A stretch of DNA of 64,000 nucleotides from Natronococcus amylolyticus DSM 10524. GTDB taxonomy: Archaea > Halobacteriota > Halobacteria > Halobacteriales > Natrialbaceae. The notes beneath the pieces were generated by a model, which worked only from the letters and a program-made list of their open reading frames with translations, ran no database searches and was not told the origin of the DNA. The stretch spans positions 1-64,000 of the forward strand of contig NZ_AOIB01000013.1 of the NCBI RefSeq assembly GCF_000337675.1, given 5' to 3'. Both the position numbers and the translations under genes were made by a program. Shown here piece after piece: positions 10,713 to 39,525 of this stretch (its first letter is position 1; the number at the start of each line of letters is the position of its first letter).

Positions 10713-12008
10713 TCAGGCCAGTGGTTCGGACCGCGCGAGCGGCTCGGTCTCGAACTCGACGAGCCATCCCTCCTGTCCGAGATCCTCGACGTCGGCTCGC
10801 TCGAGGCGTTTGCCGTCGGACTCGAGGGTTTCCGCGACGGACTCGCGGAGTCGCTCGGGGTCGTGGCGACAGAGCAGCGACAGGTGGCCGTCCTCGGTGA
10901 CCCCGAGTTCGGTGATCGCCTGTCGATTACAGGTCTCGGGCGGGAGCCCGCGCAGGTCGATCGCGTCCTCGGGCGCCCGCGTTCCGCCCTTCCCGGCGAC
11001 GAACGACTCGACGGTTTCGGCGAGGTCGGCGATCGCCCGCTCCCCTGCAGAGGTGCCGTCGGCGAACGATCGCTCCGTCGGGGTCCGGAGCGCGGGATCG
11101 AACGGAACGGGTTCGATCGAGGCGACCGCGTCCTCGTTGATTGCGTCCTCGAGATTGCGGCCGTCGCCGTCGTACGGCGACTCGTTCGTTTCGGTCGCGG
11201 TCATGTTCGGAACGACGCCGATCGTCTCGACGTCGTTGGCGGTGAACAGCGCGCCGGTCCGCTCGGTCGCGCTCGCCCCGGCGTCGGTCGGCGTACTGAC
11301 GAGCAGGGCGCCGTCGAGGGGGGCCTGCTGGACGAGAGTGTAGACGGCGTCGCCGATCCCTGGCGGGAGGTCGACCAGGAGCACGTCCCGGTCGTCCCAG
11401 GTCGCGTCCCCGAGGAGGTCCTTGAGGACGTCGTGGACCATCGCGCCGCGCCAGGCGACGGGGCCGTCCTCGGCGATCAGGTCGAGACTGACGACCTCGA
11501 TCCCGTCGGCGTCGATCGGCTGCGGTCGGCCCGAGGGCGTGTTCTGGATTGGTCCCTCCGCGCCCAGCAGGCCGGGGATATCGGGGGCGTAGACGTTCGC
11601 GTCGAAAACGGCCACGTCGAGCCCGGCCTCGTCGAGGGCCCGCGCGAGCGCGGCGGTGACAGTCGTCTTGCCGACGCCGCCCTTCGCGCTGCCGATCGCG
11701 ATCAGCGAGTCGACGCCCGTGACGGGAAGACCGCTCTCGGGTGCCTCGGCGTCGGTCGCCTTGAGGCGAACGTGATCGATCCCCTCGGTCGCGAGCCCGG
11801 CGCCCCGGAGCTGATCCGAGAGGCGCTCGCTCAACTGCCGGTTGAGCCGATCGAAGACGACCGTGAACGTGACGACCCCGTTCTCGACGGAAACGTCCTC
11901 GAGCAGTTGCTCGCTGACCGGGTCGCCGTCCGCCAGTTGTACCTCTCGTGTTCGGTCGATAACCGCGCGCTTGATCTCGTCGTCCGTCCGCGGTGTCTCG
12001 TCTTCCAT
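10713..12008 (-). CDS. Mrp/ApbC-like P-loop ATPase with a C-terminal DUF2249-like domain
   Basis: The 431-residue protein has three parts. Residues 1-100 look like the MIP18/DUF59 domain. About 105-350 is a deviant Walker ATPase (GSAKGGVGKTT, VLLVDLPPGIGDA). About 365-425 resembles DUF2249 (IDLRGLPPETC, RHDPERL). Mrp/NBP35 proteins carry Fe-S clusters to apoproteins. The usual ENMSxFxCPxC cluster motif is replaced here by PNMTATETNE with no CxxC, so direct cluster binding is doubtful. It lies 278 bases upstream of the molybdoenzyme operon on the same strand and borders the replication origin. A maturation role for that enzyme is inferred. Confidence 0.83.
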   Translation of the reverse strand: MEDETPRTDDEIKRAVIDRTREVQLADGDPVSEQLLEDVSVENGVVTFTVVFDRLNRQLSERLSDQLRGAGLATEGIDHVRLKATDAEAPESGLPVTGVDSLIAIGSAKGGVGKTTVTAALARALDEAGLDVAVFDANVYAPDIPGLLGAEGPIQNTPSGRPQPIDADGIEVVSLDLIAEDGPVAWRGAMVHDVLKDLLGDATWDDRDVLLVDLPPGIGDAVYTLVQQAPLDGALLVSTPTDAGASATERTGALFTANDVETIGVVPNMTATETNESPYDGDGRNLEDAINEDAVASIEPVPFDPALRTPTERSFADGTSAGERAIADLAETVESFVAGKGGTRAPEDAIDLRGLPPETCNRQAITELGVTEDGHLSLLCRHDPERLRESVAETLESDGKRLERADVEDLGQEGWLVEFETEPLARSEPLA

Positions 12009-12143: not shown

Positions 12144-12165
12144 GTCCCCTTGTTCAGAGTGTAAC
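12144..12165 (-). repeat. oriC: ORB-type origin repeat 1
   Basis: Read on the minus strand it is GTTACACTCTGAAC followed by AAGGGG. It shares GTTACACTCTGAAC with the copy at 12845-12870. Orc1/Cdc6 binding is inferred from family knowledge. Confidence 0.7.
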
Positions 12166-12209
12166 GACTCGAGCGGGAAGCCGGGGGAAGCGGCGATTAC
12201 GAGCCACAG

Positions 12210-12230
12210 CTTTTCACTCTGAGTTGGGTG
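12210..12230 (+). repeat. oriC: ORB-type origin repeat 2 (plus-strand arm of an inverted pair)
   Basis: CTTTTCACTCTGAGTTGGGTG. It forms the left arm of an imperfect palindrome with the minus-strand repeat at 12241-12264. The conserved second half is weaker than in the other copies (GAGTTGGG in place of GAACGAGGGG). Confidence 0.65.
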
Positions 12231-12240
12231 TGTGCCCACC

Positions 12241-12264
12241 CCCACCCCTCGTTCAGAGTGAAAA
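12241..12264 (-). repeat. oriC: ORB-type origin repeat 3 (minus-strand arm of the inverted pair)
   Basis: On the minus strand it reads TTTTCACTCTGAACGAGGGG and continues TGGG. It faces repeat 2 across a short C-rich spacer, so two initiator molecules could bind head to head here. Confidence 0.75.
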
Positions 12265-12373
12265 GGGCTTCGAAGGTGTCCCCCTACCTGTGAGGGACGA
12301 CGGTGGGAAGGATATTCAGTAGGAGACCAGCGTATCGATCGGTATCACCACAGTTGAGTCGTCTCGCGGTAAT

Positions 12374-12513: not shown

Positions 12514-12699
12514 CTAGTTGGCAGCTAGCATATTGTGGTGGACTCTCTCTGAATGTCTACGTCTAGATACTAGATAGATATCTAGAAAGACATAGTAACT
12601 AACTAGAGATGGTCTAGAAATCGTTCTCTTACCAGCAGCAACAACCTATACCAAAAAATATAATACTAACTAGTAGATCTCGGCTACAGTGGATGCTAG
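12514..12699. repeat. oriC: CTAG-rich AT-rich core of the origin
   Basis: CTAG occurs nine times in 186 bases, starting at 12514, 12525, 12563, 12570, 12582, 12603, 12614, 12670 and 12696. By eye I find only about fifteen to twenty more in the rest of the 64 kb. CTAG is rare in haloarchaeal genomes and is the target of a conserved orphan m4C methyltransferase in this group. The cluster coincides with the likely unwinding element. Confidence 0.8.
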
Positions 12700-12844
12700 A
12701 CAGACTCACGCTATGCTCGAGATGGGAGTACAGTGAGAGAACTGTCACGTCCTCACAGCAGTTACCGTCTCAATCCCGTGGTTACCCACCGCCATTTCTT
12801 ACCACCCCTCCCCCACCACCCCTCCCCACCCCCTCTCTCGAGCC

Positions 12845-12870
12845 GTTACACTCTGAACGAGGGGTGGGGG
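12845..12870 (+). repeat. oriC: ORB-type origin repeat 4, with G-tract
   Basis: GTTACACTCTGAACGAGGGG followed by TGGGGG, directed toward orc1, and preceded by CTCTCTCGAGCC. A run of C-rich sequence (12803-12834) lies just upstream. The orientation is opposite to repeats 1 and 3, so the AT-rich core is flanked by inward- and outward-facing boxes. Confidence 0.8.
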
Positions 12871-13049
12871 TGGGGTCGAAGAGAGGCCGAAAACACCGGT
12901 GGAGTCTCCCCGTCGTTCAGTCTGCATGCGGCCTCCGGCCCGCTCGCGCCGATTCTCTCGAAATACATCGGTTCAACGCCGCTCGAGATACCTTATCAGT
13001 CTGAGCTACCTTCCATAGTTTTATTATACAACTCTCCAAGGACAGCAAC

Positions 13050-14333
13050 ATGACCGAACAGGCCGGTGGGGATCCCCTCTTCCAGTCGCAGGATCCGATC
13101 TTCAATCGGAAGGAACTCCTGCACGTCGGCCACGTCCCCGATGAGGACCGGATCGTCGGCCGGGACGACGAGATCCAGTCCGTCGCCGCCGAAGTCGGGG
13201 CGATCACGCGGGGCGACCCACCGAACAACGTGATGATCTACGGCAAGACCGGGACCGGGAAGAGTCTCATCTCCCGCCATGTCGCGACGCGGGCCCGGGA
13301 CGCCGCCGATGACAACGAGATCGGCTGTGGCGTGCTCTACGTCGACTGCTCCGAAGCCAACACGGAGACGCGGGCGACCCGCCAGCTCGCCCTCAGTCTC
13401 GCCGACCAGACCGGCTACGACCAGCACATTCCGGTCCGTGGTGTCGGCACGATGGAGTACTACCAGCACATCTGGTCGATCCTCGAGGAGTTCTTCGACT
13501 CGGTGATCGTGATCCTCGACGAGATCGACAAGCTCGACAACAGCAACATCCTGATGCAGCTCTCGCGGGCCCGCGAGGCGCGAAAGACCGACGCCTACAT
13601 CGGTGTCATCGGCATCTCGAACAAGGTCCAGTACCGCGAGACCCTCGATGAACGGATCGACAGCAGCTTCGGCCACCGGGAGCTGTTCTTTCACCCCTAC
13701 GACGCCGCACAGCTCCGAGAGATTATGCGAAATCGCCAGGACGCCTTCCAGCCCGACGTGCTCGAGGACGGCACGATCGAGCTCTGTGCCGCCCTCGCGG
13801 CGAAGAAACACGGCGACGCGCGCAAGGCGATCGAGATCCTCAAGGAAGCCGGCGAACTCGCGCGCCGCACGGCCTCCGAGAGCGTCTCCGAGCGCCACAT
13901 CAAGCAGGCTCAGGAGGTCGCCGAGATCAACCGGATCGAGGAACTCACCAGCGGGGCGACCGCCCACGCGAAACTGGCACTGTACGCGCTGGCGAGCTGT
14001 ATCGTCACCGGCGACCGCGAGACCTACAAGACCCGCGAGATCTACGAGCGCTACGCCGACATCTGCGAGCTGGTCGCGACGGACCCGATCACCGAGAACG
14101 GGCTCTACCGCCAGCTCAAGGAACAGGCCTTCTTGGGCGTTATCGAGTCCGAGAAGACCGGCGGGGGTCGCTCCCAGGGAAGCTACCTCCTTCACCGCCT
14201 CGTCACCGATCCGAAACACATCGTCAAGGCCGTCCGTCGCGACGACTCGCTCGAAGAGCTGCCGCCCTACGACAAACTCGCCGACAGTACCGACTCGACG
14301 CGCGGACGCGTCGACCTGTCCTCGTTCTCGTAG
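13050..14333 (+). CDS. orc1: Orc1/Cdc6-family replication initiator
   Basis: This 427-residue AAA+ protein binds origin recognition boxes and opens the origin. The Walker A motif is GKTGTGKS near residue 65, Walker B is VIVILDEIDKLDN near 155, and sensor residues follow in the IGISNK segment near 190. The C-terminal third (from about residue 310) is the winged helix that contacts ORB DNA. ATG 13050 lies 24 bases after the TATA-like TTTTATTATA. The adjacent ORB-rich upstream region makes this an origin-linked initiator and not one of the dispersed plasmid-type paralogues. Confidence 0.95.
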   Translation: MTEQAGGDPLFQSQDPIFNRKELLHVGHVPDEDRIVGRDDEIQSVAAEVGAITRGDPPNNVMIYGKTGTGKSLISRHVATRARDAADDNEIGCGVLYVDCSEANTETRATRQLALSLADQTGYDQHIPVRGVGTMEYYQHIWSILEEFFDSVIVILDEIDKLDNSNILMQLSRAREARKTDAYIGVIGISNKVQYRETLDERIDSSFGHRELFFHPYDAAQLREIMRNRQDAFQPDVLEDGTIELCAALAAKKHGDARKAIEILKEAGELARRTASESVSERHIKQAQEVAEINRIEELTSGATAHAKLALYALASCIVTGDRETYKTREIYERYADICELVATDPITENGLYRQLKEQAFLGVIESEKTGGGRSQGSYLLHRLVTDPKHIVKAVRRDDSLEELPPYDKLADSTDSTRGRVDLSSFS

Positions 14334-34378: not shown

Positions 34379-36392
34379 ATGAGTTCGACACCGCTGACGG
34401 ACACCCTCCGAGAAACCCTCGCAATCTTCGAGGAAGGCGGGGCGCCTCGGACGACGACCGAGGTCGCCGAACAGTTCGACCTTGGCCGCCGGAGCGCCTA
34501 CGAGCGACTGGAGCGTCTCGTCGACCACGACCAACTCGAAACCAAGAAAGTAGGGGGAAACGGGCGCGTCTGGTGGCGGCCAGTTACGGAGGAAGGAGCG
34601 ATTACACGAGATTCCGCCGATCGCGACCTTGGTGCGGTATTCGATCGAATCTCGGACAGTTTCTACGCCCTCGATGAAGAACTCCGCTTTCGCTATCTGA
34701 ACGACACCGCAGCAGACCTTTTTGGACTAGATGAGGATGCAATTGGTTCGGACATTCGCAACGTGAATCTCACGGAGACGTTCGAGAGCGCGCTGTACGA
34801 GGCTCTCGAAACAAAAGAGCCTGTTACCTTCGAAGACTACTATCCGCCGTGGGACAAGTGGTTCCACAACGCCATCTCTCCCTCAGAATCAGGCCTGTCG
34901 GTGCTCTCCCGCGACATCACCGACCGGAAGCAACGCGAACGGGAACTGGCCCGCTACGAAACGATCGTCGAAACGAGTCCGATCGGCATCACGATCGTTG
35001 GCAACGACGGCGATGTTGCAGTTCGCGAGCGACCGCGCTGAGGAGATATACGATCGGAGCAAAGACCAGATCAATTCCCTCAGCTTTGACGATTCCGAAT
35101 GGAAGGAAGTCGACGCTGACGGCGAGCCGCTCTCGCGCGACGAGAAGCCCTTCTCGCGGATCATGGAGTCCGAAGAACCGCTGTTCGACCAGGTCCACGG
35201 CGTATCAAGACCGGGAGGGGAGCGCGTCTGGATCTCCATCAACGGGGCACCGGTCTACGACGATTGTGGAGAGATCGAGAGCGTCGTGTTCAGTACCGAA
35301 GACATCACTGACCGACGGGAACAACAACGCGCGGTCGAGGAGAGCGAACGTCGCTACCGGACGCTCGCTGAAAACTTCCCAAACGGTGCAGTCGGCCTAT
35401 TCGACGATAACATGCGGTACACAGCCGTCGGCGGGGAGTTACTGGACGCGACCGGGGTCTCTCCAGAAGATCGGATTGGATGCAGCGTCTACGACATTTG
35501 CCCGGACGATCTCCTCGAAGAAATCGAACCACACTTTGAGGCCGCCCTGGAGGGCAAGGCGAACTCGTTCGAACTCGAGTATCACGATCGAGACCTGTTC
35601 GTCTACACTTTGCCCGTCAGAAACGCCAACGACGAGGTCTACGCGGGGATGGTCGTCTCACAAGACATTACCGAACGGCGGGAGTACCAGCGCAAACTTG
35701 AGGAGTCGAACGAACGCCTCGAACAGTTCGCCTACGCCGCGTCTCACGACCTCCAAGAGCCGTTGCGAATGGTCACGAGCTACCTCGAGCTGGTCGACAA
35801 CCGGTACGGTGACGAACTTGACGAAGACGGTGAAGAGTTCCTCGAGTTCGCCATCGACGGCGCCGAGCGGATGCGCCAGATGATAGACGGACTGCTCGAG
35901 TACTCGCGCGTCGACACGCATGGTGATCCGTTCGAACCGGTCGACCTTGACGATATCCTCGAGGACGTGCTCGAAGATCTCCAAATACGGATCGACGAGA
36001 GGAACGCCGAGATCACAACCGACGATCTCCCGTGTATAGATGGCGACGACAGCCAGTTGCGCCAAGTCTTCCAGAACCTGTTGAGTAATGCGATCAAGTA
36101 CAGCGAGGACGAACCGCCACAGGTCGACATTTCCGCCACGCGTGATGACGAACAATGGATCATTTCAGTGCAGGACAACGGTATTGGGATTGATCCAGAT
36201 GAACAGGAGCGTATCTTCGAGGTATTCCAACGACTGCATACACACGAAGAACATTCGGGGACGGGTATCGGCCTCGCGCTCTGCCGGCGAATCGTCGAAC
36301 GTCACGGCGGCAACATCTGGGTCGAGTCAGGGCTAGACGAAGGTTCCACGCTCTCGTTTACCGTTCCTGCCGTAAGTGGGAACAAGACGTAA
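34379..36392 (+). pseudogene. HTH-PAS-PAS-PAS sensor histidine kinase interrupted by a frameshift
   Basis: The first frame (34379-35041) encodes an N-terminal winged helix (about 1-70) and a first PAS domain with a second beginning at VETSPIGITIVGNDG. The continuing frame (to 36392) resumes at FASDRAEEIYDRSKDQI and holds the rest of PAS2, PAS3, a HisKA-like helix with AASHDLQEPLRMV (phospho-His), and an HATPase domain with NAIKYS, DNGIGI and GTGIGLALCRRIVERHGG. One extra base near 35015-35018 breaks the frame. Whether it is a true mutation or a sequencing error is unresolved. A DNA-binding domain fused to a kinase is a known haloarchaeal architecture. Confidence 0.85.
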
Positions 36393-36440
36393 ATTCTCTG
36401 TATTGAGCGATCACCGCTTTCGCAACTCAAGCCATCTCTC

Positions 36441-36580
36441 GTGCAGCATTCGCGCCCTCTATTCAGCAGATCGTGATCGAACTACCGAGTCACTGTCAAA
36501 GTGGAATGGTAAAGAGAGAGGAGATATTCAGCACTGCAGCTTCGTTCATTTCAAGCTAGTTCTGATGACTTACCCGCTCA
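36441..36580 (+). repeat. Dispersed island repeat, copy B (long form)
   Basis: Starts GTGCAGCATTCGCGCC, continues to TATTCAGCAG, then matches copy C at CAGCAC..CAGCTTCGTT (36529-36546) and CCGCTCA (36574-36580). The offsets agree within one base, so B and C are two diverged copies of the same roughly 140-bp element. It lies in the gap after the sensor kinase, where I see no gene. Confidence 0.65.
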
Positions 36581-36669
36581 ATAGCGGTACGGACATATTG
36601 TGTTAGCGTGAGATAGGACTCAACTGGATCTGTCCATCGATGGTCACAGTTCGGCTTTCAGTCCACTCG

Positions 36670-37025
36670 TCAGTCTCCAGAACCCTTGACTGACGATTGT
36701 TCGTCTACCAGAATGACATTTGTACTAGTGACTGTCACTTTGTATCCGGCGTATGGGAACGTGACCTGCCAGTTGGCGTCCTCGTCGGTTGCGGCAGGTG
36801 ACAGACTGGTGAGCGCGTCAGGGTCTACGACCTTGTAAAGTGATGGAAGTGATTCACTACACACCTCATCCGAAACAGGGCCATCCGACGGTAACAGTGG
36901 AATGTTAGTGATGGCACTGACTGCGTTGAGAACGGCTTCGGCTACCGTCTCGTTGCCGTTCAGACTGTATTCAAATGCTTGTAGCTCCGTCGCAGGTGAG
37001 TCCCCTCATCGGCGTCACTGCTCAT
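36670..37025 (-). pseudogene. HalOD1 output-domain protein with a frameshift near its start
   Basis: HalOD1 is a haloarchaeal domain found as a stand-alone output module in signalling. From about 36999 downward the frame reads ELQAFEYSLNGNETVAEAVL, later LPSLYKVVDPDALTSL and VTFPYAGYKVTVTSTNVILV, which covers the domain. The only suitable start, ATG at 37025 (MSSDADEG), is in another frame; one more base in the four-G run at 37002-37005 would join them. If the shift is real, a shorter protein from the Met at 36864 would lack half the domain. Promoter sequence upstream is shared with the zinc-ribbon gene. Confidence 0.7.
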
Positions 37026-37054
37026 TCTTGTATAGTTGTTGGTTAAGTGCCGTC

Positions 37055-37088
37055 TTGCCGCTTGCCTGAAATTATGGAGGTCTTTTAA
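37055..37088 (-). promoter_or_regulatory. Duplicated promoter region, copy 1 (before the HalOD1 gene)
   Basis: These 34 bases match 37325-37358 with four mismatches. The shared parts are TTGCCGCTT, ATTATGGAGG and CTTTTAA on the plus strand. On the coding (minus) strand the element reads TTAAAAG..CCTCCATAAT and lies 30 bases before the HalOD1 ATG. Confidence 0.6.
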
Positions 37089-37112
37089 AAGTAGGAGTCA
37101 CTCAGCACTGCA

Positions 37113-37298
37113 TCAGTCTTCATGGAAATCGATAGCGCTCGTGTCTTCGATAACCTGGAATTCTGTCGATCCACAGCCGGGACATCCGTTTTTCGCCCCG
37201 ATTGGTTGAATCGCTCCGCCCGACCACTCCTCGGCCGCATAGGTATTACCGCAGTTGGAACATTCAGCGATTGTCCGTTCGCTATCTCCTTTTGGCAT
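37113..37298 (-). CDS. Small zinc-ribbon protein
   Basis: The 61-residue protein has two CxxC knuckles, CSNCG at 13-17 and CPGCG at 39-43, forming a treble-clef or rubredoxin-like zinc site. The tail is acidic. Such small zinc proteins are abundant in haloarchaea and mostly unstudied. It starts 27 bases downstream of the second copy of the duplicated promoter, so it is probably coregulated with the HalOD1 gene. Confidence 0.78.
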   Translation of the reverse strand: MPKGDSERTIAECSNCGNTYAAEEWSGGAIQPIGAKNGCPGCGSTEFQVIEDTSAIDFHED

Positions 37299-37324
37299 CT
37301 TCTATACTGTTGGCCGAGTATCGT

Positions 37325-37358
37325 TTGCCGCTTACCTACAATTATGGAGGGCTTTTAA
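37325..37358 (-). promoter_or_regulatory. Duplicated promoter region, copy 2 (before the zinc-ribbon gene)
   Basis: See copy 1. The element lies 27 bases before the ATG at 37298, nearly the same distance as copy 1 from its gene. The flanking 25-30 bases toward each start codon are also similar (TATA.TGTTGG..), so the whole 5' region was duplicated. Confidence 0.6.
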
Positions 37359-37368
37359 GATGCGAGCG

Positions 37369-38040
37369 TCAATCATCACTGTCATTAGCCGTGGTGTCAC
37401 GGTGCGCGATTGTGCTTCTGAGAAGGTTGTGGTATCCTCGATGGAGACGATCGGCGAACGAGGGACGCGAAATACCGAGTTGATCGGCAAGTGTTTGGAG
37501 ATCGGTCTCACGAGGTTGGTTATAATAGCCTTCATTGAACGCGAGAAGCAACGCCTCGTGTTGGTTAGCGGTGAGGCCGTACTCGTCCCCTGCCTGTAAC
37601 TCTGCTAGCGATTGCAACCGGGTGAGTTGGGTATTAATCTCGTGGTCGGCACAGTATTGCTGAAACGCCGAGATTTGGTCTGAATCTTCAGCGCGGAACT
37701 CGAACGTCCATTGTTTGTTCGTGCCGATCGCCGATAGTAGCGTGAGATCTTTGTCGAGAATAGCTGTGAGGACGCCTTTTACCTCGGGGTTCCACTGGGC
37801 ACGATACAATCCCTGATTCTCGTAGTAGTCGATACGCGTCACCGACTCAAATGCCGCTTCAGTTGTCAGAACGTCTTGAATAGTGTCGTCAGGAGCGTCA
37901 GCTATCCAGAAGTACGGGAGTTGACCTTGGTCGGTGGGAATGACACGCTCTATTTCGACCGTTGCGGTCGGCAGATCATCGAAAACCCGACCTAATGGGA
38001 AGCTCTCTACTGGTATAATGAACTCTGCGATGATCGCCAT
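37369..38040 (-). CDS. HTH-10 (Bat-type) transcriptional regulator
   Basis: The 223-residue protein has an N-terminal GAF-like/bacterioopsin-activator sensor part (residues 1-150) and a C-terminal HTH-10 domain: LTANQHEALLLAFNEGYYNQ, then TDLQTLADQLGISRPSFADRL. The arrangement is that of haloarchaeal Bat-family activators. The target genes may be the neighbouring small genes or remote ones. Its upstream region contains two CTAG sites (38082 and 38091) but no clear palindrome. Confidence 0.87.
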   Translation of the reverse strand: MAIIAEFIIPVESFPLGRVFDDLPTATVEIERVIPTDQGQLPYFWIADAPDDTIQDVLTTEAAFESVTRIDYYENQGLYRAQWNPEVKGVLTAILDKDLTLLSAIGTNKQWTFEFRAEDSDQISAFQQYCADHEINTQLTRLQSLAELQAGDEYGLTANQHEALLLAFNEGYYNQPRETDLQTLADQLGISRPSFADRLHRGYHNLLRSTIAHRDTTANDSDD

Positions 38041-38158
38041 ATTAGTAGCTACAACTGCGAAACAGAAAGTAGCCTATTCACGCTAGACTGACTAGACACG
38101 TAAGGCAATGGTTGCTCTTCCGCAGCGAAAATCATGTTAGGGTGTTCAGTCCACGGAC

Positions 38159-38350
38159 TTACTTATCGTCACCAAGTTCTTCAGCAGTGAGTTTATGGCC
38201 CGTTTCCTGTCCATGTTCAATGATCACCTTTGATGACTTGTTCCCTTCTTTCGTCACCAGCTTCGAAAAGGCGCATTCAGTACACACGATGCGAACTTTT
38301 TGTGAGGTTTGTACGGCTTCGCCTGTCAGGGTGTCCTTATCTTTGGTCAT
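38159..38350 (-). CDS. Small zinc-finger-like protein
   Basis: The 63-residue protein (from the Met at 38350) has CTECAFSKLV followed by IIEHGQETGHKLTA, giving C-x2-C-x18-H-x5-H, a plausible zinc site. The frame extends to a Met at 38467 (102 residues), but that extension looks non-domain-like. The zinc-binding core argues for the short form. Function unknown; DNA- or protein-binding are possible. Confidence 0.6.
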   Translation of the reverse strand: MTKDKDTLTGEAVQTSQKVRIVCTECAFSKLVTKEGNKSSKVIIEHGQETGHKLTAEELGDDK

Positions 38351-38842
38351 ATAGATCAGGTGTGGTGAAATACGCTTCCGGTACAATGTGCCACACGTGA
38401 CAGCGACGCGAAGGGAAAAAGGAGCGTTCCGCGACAGAACGACCTCTAGTTCAAGTGGCCCCTCCATCGTAGGGGCGCTAACACACGATATGAATCGCTA
38501 TTTCAGACAAATATAGACGCCTCAGACGTATAAAGGTGCGTATGTGAATATACAATTTCTTTCTCTCTTCGGATGATATGTTCGTCCTATACCCGGTGTT
38601 CAACGCCCTTGGTGATTGGCTTCCTTTGTGCCTCATTCGCGCTGTGTATGCAGCAGCGACTGAGCGTTCTACCCAGCCTCTGTCAGAATCGGCGTGAAAG
38701 ACTTGGAGGATGAGTGCAGCACGACAGCTTCGTTTGGTTTACGTTGGAATCGGTGAACCATCCGCTCACTACACCTACTTACTGAACGCTGTGGCGGAAT
38801 ATTAATGGAGCAGTGGAATTTCTCACTTTAGAGATAGTTGAT
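38351..38842. other. AT-rich gap with repeat copy C
   Basis: The 492-base gap has no gene I can support. A 33-codon frame at 38712-38810 (MSAARQLRLVYVGIGE...) overlaps repeat copy C but has no other support. AT-rich stretches near 38510-38560 are probably promoter sequence. Confidence 0.45.
38628..38768 (+). repeat. Dispersed island repeat, copy C (long form)
   Basis: Begins GTGCCTCATTCGCGC and TATGCAGCAG, then has CAGCACGACAGCTTCGTT (38717-38734) and CCGCTCA (38762-38768), in register with copy B. The middle also aligns partially (CTACCCAGCCTCTGTCA against CTACCGAGTCACTGTCA). Confidence 0.65.
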
Positions 38843-39283
38843 ATGGTCAAAGAGTGGCTGCAGATGGAGAATATGTGGGGTAGACACTCCAATCCGAAGA
38901 GCGGGTGGAGTCGAATGGCAGCAGGGTTCGTGGCCGTGGGCGCACTCTACCATCGGAAATGGAATTTGTTGGGGCTCACTCTTCTGTTCTTGATCATCAA
39001 TCCGGTGCTATTCCCCGAACCGAGTGAGGAGTTGGATGACTGGATGTACAAAGTCGTACGAGCTGAAGAACGCTGGAGTAACGACGGTCACCGCTTTATC
39101 GGTCTCGGCTACCCGCAGATCCTAAACACCGTGAGTATCCCAATCGGGCTCTATGGCCTCTACGCGGCGTACAAACGCAAGCCTGTCTCAGCTGTGGTTT
39201 TCACTCTCGCATCACAAGGACTCAACCAGTGGTGTATGAAGGAGATTATCGAGTACTACGAAGAAGTCGATTCGAAGAAATAG
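38843..39283 (+). CDS. DUF6653-like membrane protein
   Basis: The 146-residue protein (from ATG 38843) has the family pattern RHSNPKSGWSRMAAGF near the N-terminus, a pair of hydrophobic helices (AAGFVAVGALYHRKWN, LLGLTLLFLIINPVLFP), then W-rich EELDDWMYKVVRAEERW and a third helix. A GTG at 38813 is in frame upstream but less likely. It is an integral membrane protein of unknown role, common in haloarchaea. Confidence 0.72.
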   Translation: MVKEWLQMENMWGRHSNPKSGWSRMAAGFVAVGALYHRKWNLLGLTLLFLIINPVLFPEPSEELDDWMYKVVRAEERWSNDGHRFIGLGYPQILNTVSIPIGLYGLYAAYKRKPVSAVVFTLASQGLNQWCMKEIIEYYEEVDSKK

Positions 39284-39369
39284 TTGATCCCACATTGATC
39301 CTTTGTCCAAAGCGAGACGTGAACCACCAATATTGACCAGTATTACCGTCGCAGACCGAGTCAAATTTC

Positions 39370-39398
39370 GTGGTACATTCGCGCTGTGTATTCAGCAT
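39370..39398 (+). repeat. Dispersed island repeat, copy D (short form)
   Basis: GTGGTACATTCGCGCTGTG followed by TATTCAGCAT. It is 25 of 29 identical to copy C in the same orientation. The downstream half of the element is not recognisable here. It marks the right end of the island, before the aldo/keto reductase. Confidence 0.65.
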
Positions 39399-39525
39399 GG
39401 CTCTCCCAACACCCCTATTAGTTGATGGAAGAGACGGCGTTACGTTCGCATGCTCTACGTAACGAATTAGGGGAGTCGGATTCGACACTACGGCCGAACG
39501 AAGAAAATCACTCTCTACTACTGAG

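Follow-up and report, generated by a model that had tools for sequence, protein, structure and literature searches.

Clusters of CTAG upstream of haloarchaeal orc1/cdc6 genes, several per genome, were described by Blow et al. 2016 (PMC4752239, Fig 6D), who reported that the clusters correlate with an orphan methyltransferase and proposed a role in replication control. In the relevant passages of that paper the motif is printed as m4CATG in the text and as CTAG in the Fig 6D legend; the text version appears to be a misprint, because a later paper cites CTAG. In H. volcanii, high CTAG density is found only at oriC2, and a deletion strain lacking CTAG methylation grows normally (Ouellette et al. 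2018, PMC5867850). The role of CTAG methylation has been called an open question (Fullmer et al. 2019, PMC6471742). In the literature, the haloarchaeal methyltransferase gene is regarded as an orphan. Little is understood about how archaea stop an origin from firing a second time.

The locus analyzed here lies in a 64-kb stretch of Natronococcus amylolyticus DNA (the window). It shares with the system of Blow et al. the motif, its place in a dense cluster upstream of orc1/cdc6, its occurrence at several origins per genome and the correlation with the methyltransferase, and is an instance of that system. The window cluster is not new in kind; it is a strong instance of the 2016 pattern. New relative to the relevant passages of Blow et al. 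are the position of the sites between inverted ORBs, a control for AT content, the contrast between oriC1 cores of genomes with and without the enzyme, and an origin whose cluster is separated from its orc gene.

The first-pass annotation had reported nine CTAG sites within 186 bp, a further fifteen to twenty in the rest of the 64 kb, and avoidance of the tetramer outside the cluster. These observations were reproduced. CTAG starts at positions 12514, 12525, 12563, 12570, 12582, 12603, 12614, 12670 and 12696, and the whole window holds 25 CTAG, whereas shuffling it with dinucleotides preserved predicts 115. With 16 sites in the other 63.8 kb, the background rate predicts 0.05 CTAG in a 186-bp stretch (Poisson P ~3e-18). 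The annotation had also placed the cluster at the AT-rich core of an origin, which agrees with an orc1/cdc6 gene at 13050 and inverted ORB-like repeats on either side of the core (Table 1); the cluster is the window's highest-AT 186-bp stretch. Seven of the 16 remaining sites lie at 36.3-38.5 kb, in an AT-rich segment (36300-39500, ~50% GC) that adjoins a PAS/histidine-kinase-like gene, contains an HTH-regulator-like gene, and looks like foreign or less constrained DNA.

Table 1. Features of the predicted origin in the window, and the separated oriC1 origin of a complete Natrialbaceae genome (G065).
Feature	Position	Strand	Details
CTAG cluster	12514..12699	.	nine sites, AT-rich core of predicted origin, 39% GC
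orc1/cdc6 initiator gene of predicted origin	13050..14333	+	TIGR02928, 392 bits
Divergent Mrp/ParA-type ATPase gene, left boundary of intergenic origin	10713..12008	-	ORF list; putative name, from sequence features (SAKGGVGKTT)
Left outer ORB-like repeat GTTCAGAGTGTAACG...	12146..12186	+	inverted relative to 12824-12864; 80% complementarity across 41 nt
Left inner ORB pair with G-string, TTTCACTCTGA ... CCCACCCCCACCCCTCGTTCAGAGTGAAAAGG	12210..12266	.	inverted-repeat pairs
Right ORB-like repeat with G-string, CCGTTACACTCTGAACGAGGGGTGGGGGTGGG	12843..12874	-	94% complementary to 12235-12266
Conserved core element CTATACCAAAAAATATAATACTAACTAG	12646..12673	+	last bases are one of the CTAG sites
G065 oriC1 origin	L369:2500-3150 = G065:C1 ~1885.5-1886.1 kb		ORBs, GTPase neighbour, CTAG cluster

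The cluster lies within a 1.04-kb intergenic region between the ATPase gene and the orc1/cdc6 gene, whose best-matching Orc homologs are from Natronococcus (95-99% identity). Repeats of the GTTCAGAGTGnAA type with G-rich strings occupy 12146-12266 and recur as inverted copies at 12824-12874, flanking the core. In the alignment of Natronococcus-type loci, the left outer repeat is kept in 4/5 other loci and the right repeat (12843-12874) is mostly invariant. At least two inverted G-string ORBs surround an AT-rich element beside orc1/cdc6, which is the architecture of haloarchaeal origins (PMC3528665), and judged by this architecture the locus is a replication origin with the CTAG cluster in its unwinding core. 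The conserved core element occurs once, at the origin, in the query genome and in several related genomes, and its form, CTATACCA(A/T)AAAATATAATACTAACTAG, is near-constant while the rest of the Natronococcus origin core diverges fast. Candidate roles for this element are initiator contact, a fixed unwinding site or a promoter. A plasmid DNA similarity search with the intergenic region returned a single match of 51 bp.

As the annotation had supposed, a conserved CTAG methyltransferase accompanies the cluster. The query genome encodes one methyltransferase gene (G000:C40; protein P0001, 352 aa, N6_N4_Mtase), with orthologs in 266/293 sampled members of the order, and nearly all listed genomes without the enzyme belong to one family (f3). 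Across 93% of its length, the query protein shares 50% identity with an enzyme of plasmid pFZ1, whose gene adjoins an MjaI-family endonuclease gene. We take the pFZ1 enzyme to be M.MthZI, specific for CTAG, and from this similarity we infer the same specificity for the query enzyme. The ORFs beside the methyltransferase gene in the query genome gave no sign of an endonuclease or of a hemimethylation reader. CTAG avoidance as an outcome of methylation was considered and is unsupported, the flanks in enzyme-negative genomes being equally CTAG-poor.

The origin oriC1 is conserved across all haloarchaea (PMC3528665). Its Orc was located in 80/80 chosen genomes, the upstream DNA was taken, and the interval bounded by the inverted oriC1 ORBs was treated as the core, giving 75 scored cores (55 from genomes with the enzyme and 20 from genomes without). 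The mean number of CTAG per core was 2.65 with the enzyme (n = 55) compared to 0.35 without it (n = 20), and the density was 11.8 compared to 1.8 CTAG/kb, at mean GC of 0.488 and 0.475, respectively. This difference gave P = 1.7e-6 by genome and P = 0.002 by genus (44 versus 5 genus groups), neither value being corrected for phylogeny, and CTAG was the tetramer most different between enzyme-positive and enzyme-negative cores. Natrialbaceae oriC1 cores hold 5-7 CTAG each; several enzyme-positive genomes hold just 0-1.

Cluster and methyltransferase are thus correlated, without phylogenetic correction, except in five enzyme-positive Halorubrum-like genomes (g25; name inferred), where the oriC1 core has 0 CTAG in 5/5. 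The enzymes of these genomes form a separate, divergent and shallow clade on a long stem, and this branching is compatible with a late acquisition. The correlation rests on few independent events, since enzyme losses are few and mostly fall in one f3 clade. When all orc-upstream regions of Haloferacaceae (f3) were compared, there was no difference between genomes with the enzyme (1.15 CTAG/kb) and without it (1.29 CTAG/kb). Those sets pool different orc families and include both plasmid copies and ORB-less regions; the analysis therefore turned to oriC1, which is single-copy, a choice made after the null f3 result.

Clusters are also found at other orc genes. In the query genome, 6/17 orc genes have 3-9 CTAG within 200 bp upstream, and the 4.4 Mb genome has seven triple-CTAG loci (3 sites within ~70 bp), of which four lie upstream of orc genes. 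Across five enzyme-negative genomes, 3 of ~8 triple-CTAG loci are still near orc genes. Such loci, near secondary or plasmid orc genes, are at G070:C3:770, G086:C1:1504311 and G140:C3:99104, and are perhaps origins acquired from enzyme-bearing lineages. Short dispersed three-CTAG repeats, probably mobile element ends, occur in G119:C1 (583581, 732727, 1194852, 1235992, 3004975 and 3703654) and G142:C1 (928593, 2807565 and 3084967), and these raise the counts of clusters away from orc genes. GATC, considered as a stand-in motif, is not enriched in enzyme-negative genomes.

The best explanation, to which we give slightly better than an even chance, is that initiation is controlled by hemimethylation of a selected CTAG cluster. 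The core CTAGs would be methylated on both strands during most of the cycle, and a passing fork would leave them hemimethylated together. During this interval the unmethylated new strand, or a putative protein reading it, would lower firing by Orc1/Cdc6 and MCM. The block would end when the enzyme restored full methylation, such that one origin would not fire twice at once. Methylation-dependent control of initiation, which the first-pass annotation put forward by analogy with Dam/SeqA and which had already been proposed by Blow et al. 2016, is favored because clusters are lost in lineages without the enzyme. It is weakened because the Halorubrum-like genomes have the enzyme and no cluster, and because the H. 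volcanii mutant has no growth defect, although this species is able to live without origins. More tentatively, and at somewhat less than even chances, m4C CTAG clusters in the unwinding cores of several origins may constitute a hemimethylation checkpoint of the haloarchaea's own, gating initiation by Orc1/Cdc6-MCM, with an evolutionary origin independent of Dam/SeqA, and lost with the enzyme in Halorubrum and its allies.

The main alternative is that an origin-binding, nucleoid or regulatory protein binds unmethylated or kinked CTAG, with methylation being secondary or protective. Consistent with such a protein, repressor complexes are reported to contain kinked CTAG (cited in PMC6471742), one conserved core element includes a CTAG, and some near-orc clusters remain in enzyme-negative genomes. 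The CTAG spacings at oriC1 show a weak 10-bp tendency (p ~0.007, post hoc), but this is absent at window-type and other origins, and we make no claim of helical phasing. Against a binding protein, the bases flanking CTAG are unconstrained. Among 33 Natrialbaceae loci with orthologous Orc, in which the region upstream of the gene was scored, the bases around the sites show an A/T preference alone and no longer common motif, so CTAG itself is the unit. As oriC1 clusters are also absent where the enzyme is absent, we consider a binding protein of this kind unlikely, if still the strongest competitor.

The cluster could also reflect relief from avoidance, with CTAG purged elsewhere and at chance level in AT-rich non-coding DNA. 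CTAG is scarce across all genomes compared, and the 9 sites observed are not far above the second-order Markov expectation of 6.5 within the 186 bp, as such relief would predict. A dinucleotide-preserving shuffle of the 186 bp alone gave a mean of 3.1 CTAG (P = 3e-4), a conservative test because the shuffled letters already include the sites. Enrichment at homologous origins, on which the first-pass annotation had made its proposal depend, is present: over the 33 loci, GC-matched 100-bp windows outside origins predict 13.2 CTAG compared to 96 observed, so AT-richness fails to account for the cluster. Relative to a second-order Markov model, observed/expected CTAG is 96/65.6 = 1.46 upstream of Orc compared to 0.29 elsewhere, and CTAG has the largest enrichment shift of 136 tetramers (z 17.6; next best 9.2). 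Pooled oriC1 cores of equal GC tell against relief as well, with observed/expected CTAG of 146/80 in enzyme-positive and 7/9 in enzyme-negative genomes. Furthermore, sites are preferentially retained between Natronococcus species, in 18/33 aligned cases compared to 50/238 for other 4-mers with two G/C (Fisher P 1e-4, with overlapping words not independent), and each of these species has 3-9 sites despite a strongly diverging core. Some of the 33 loci, notably in the Natrinema group, have only 0-3 CTAG. The cluster is under selection beyond base composition, and relief from avoidance, largely refuted, is improbable.

A reader-free effect, in which m4C would directly alter the ease of core melting, fits the central position of the sites in the unwinding core (position histogram), but studies reviewed in PMC4477647 report that m4C destabilises duplexes little or not at all, and we regard such an effect as very improbable.

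The genome G065 allows origin and initiator gene to be considered apart. Its oriC1-type orc gene (C1:1726265-1727257) has no CTAG cluster upstream; seven CTAG lie between oriC1-type ORBs 158 kb from that gene, beside a GTPase gene that also adjoins oriC1 in the query genome. The separation probably arose by rearrangement. Since the cluster is found with the ORBs and none is found at orc, it belongs to the origin and not to the orc gene or its promoter. Least probable of all the alternatives is a role for the cluster in transcribing the genes beside it: in a Haloferax strain, CTAG is reportedly enriched in the 75 bp preceding start sites (PMC11001535), but in the window 350 bp separate the cluster from orc and ~500 bp separate it from the divergent gene, and the G065 cluster stays with the ORBs.

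If a CTAG mark does gate initiation, archaea would regulate it by m4C methylation, in a system separate from the bacterial one. The comparison presented here yields natural controls in the form of enzyme-free lineages and an origin that lies apart from its orc gene. Deletion of the methyltransferase would be informative in hosts whose oriC1 cores carry 5-7 sites; H. volcanii is not such a host.

Several known systems resemble parts of this arrangement. The query methyltransferase is similar to M.MthZI of pFZ1 (Methanothermobacter), but pFZ1 carries a restriction-modification system with its endonuclease adjacent, whereas the haloarchaeal gene is treated as an orphan. Clusters of orphan methyltransferase motifs at origins are also described for TTAA in Arthrobacter and CTCGAG in Nocardia (Blow et al. 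2016, PMC4752239, Fig 6B, C); as presented there, these differ in being at bacterial dnaA origins and in involving other motifs and enzymes. The likeness to GATC, Dam and SeqA at E. coli oriC lies in palindromic targets of an orphan methyltransferase that cluster at the origin, with the hemimethylation logic being proposed in the haloarchaeal case. We know of no SeqA-like reader for the CTAG system. The two further differ in that the mark is m4C and not m6A, the initiator is Orc1/Cdc6, which is unrelated to DnaA, and CTAG is avoided genome-wide, whereas GATC is common.
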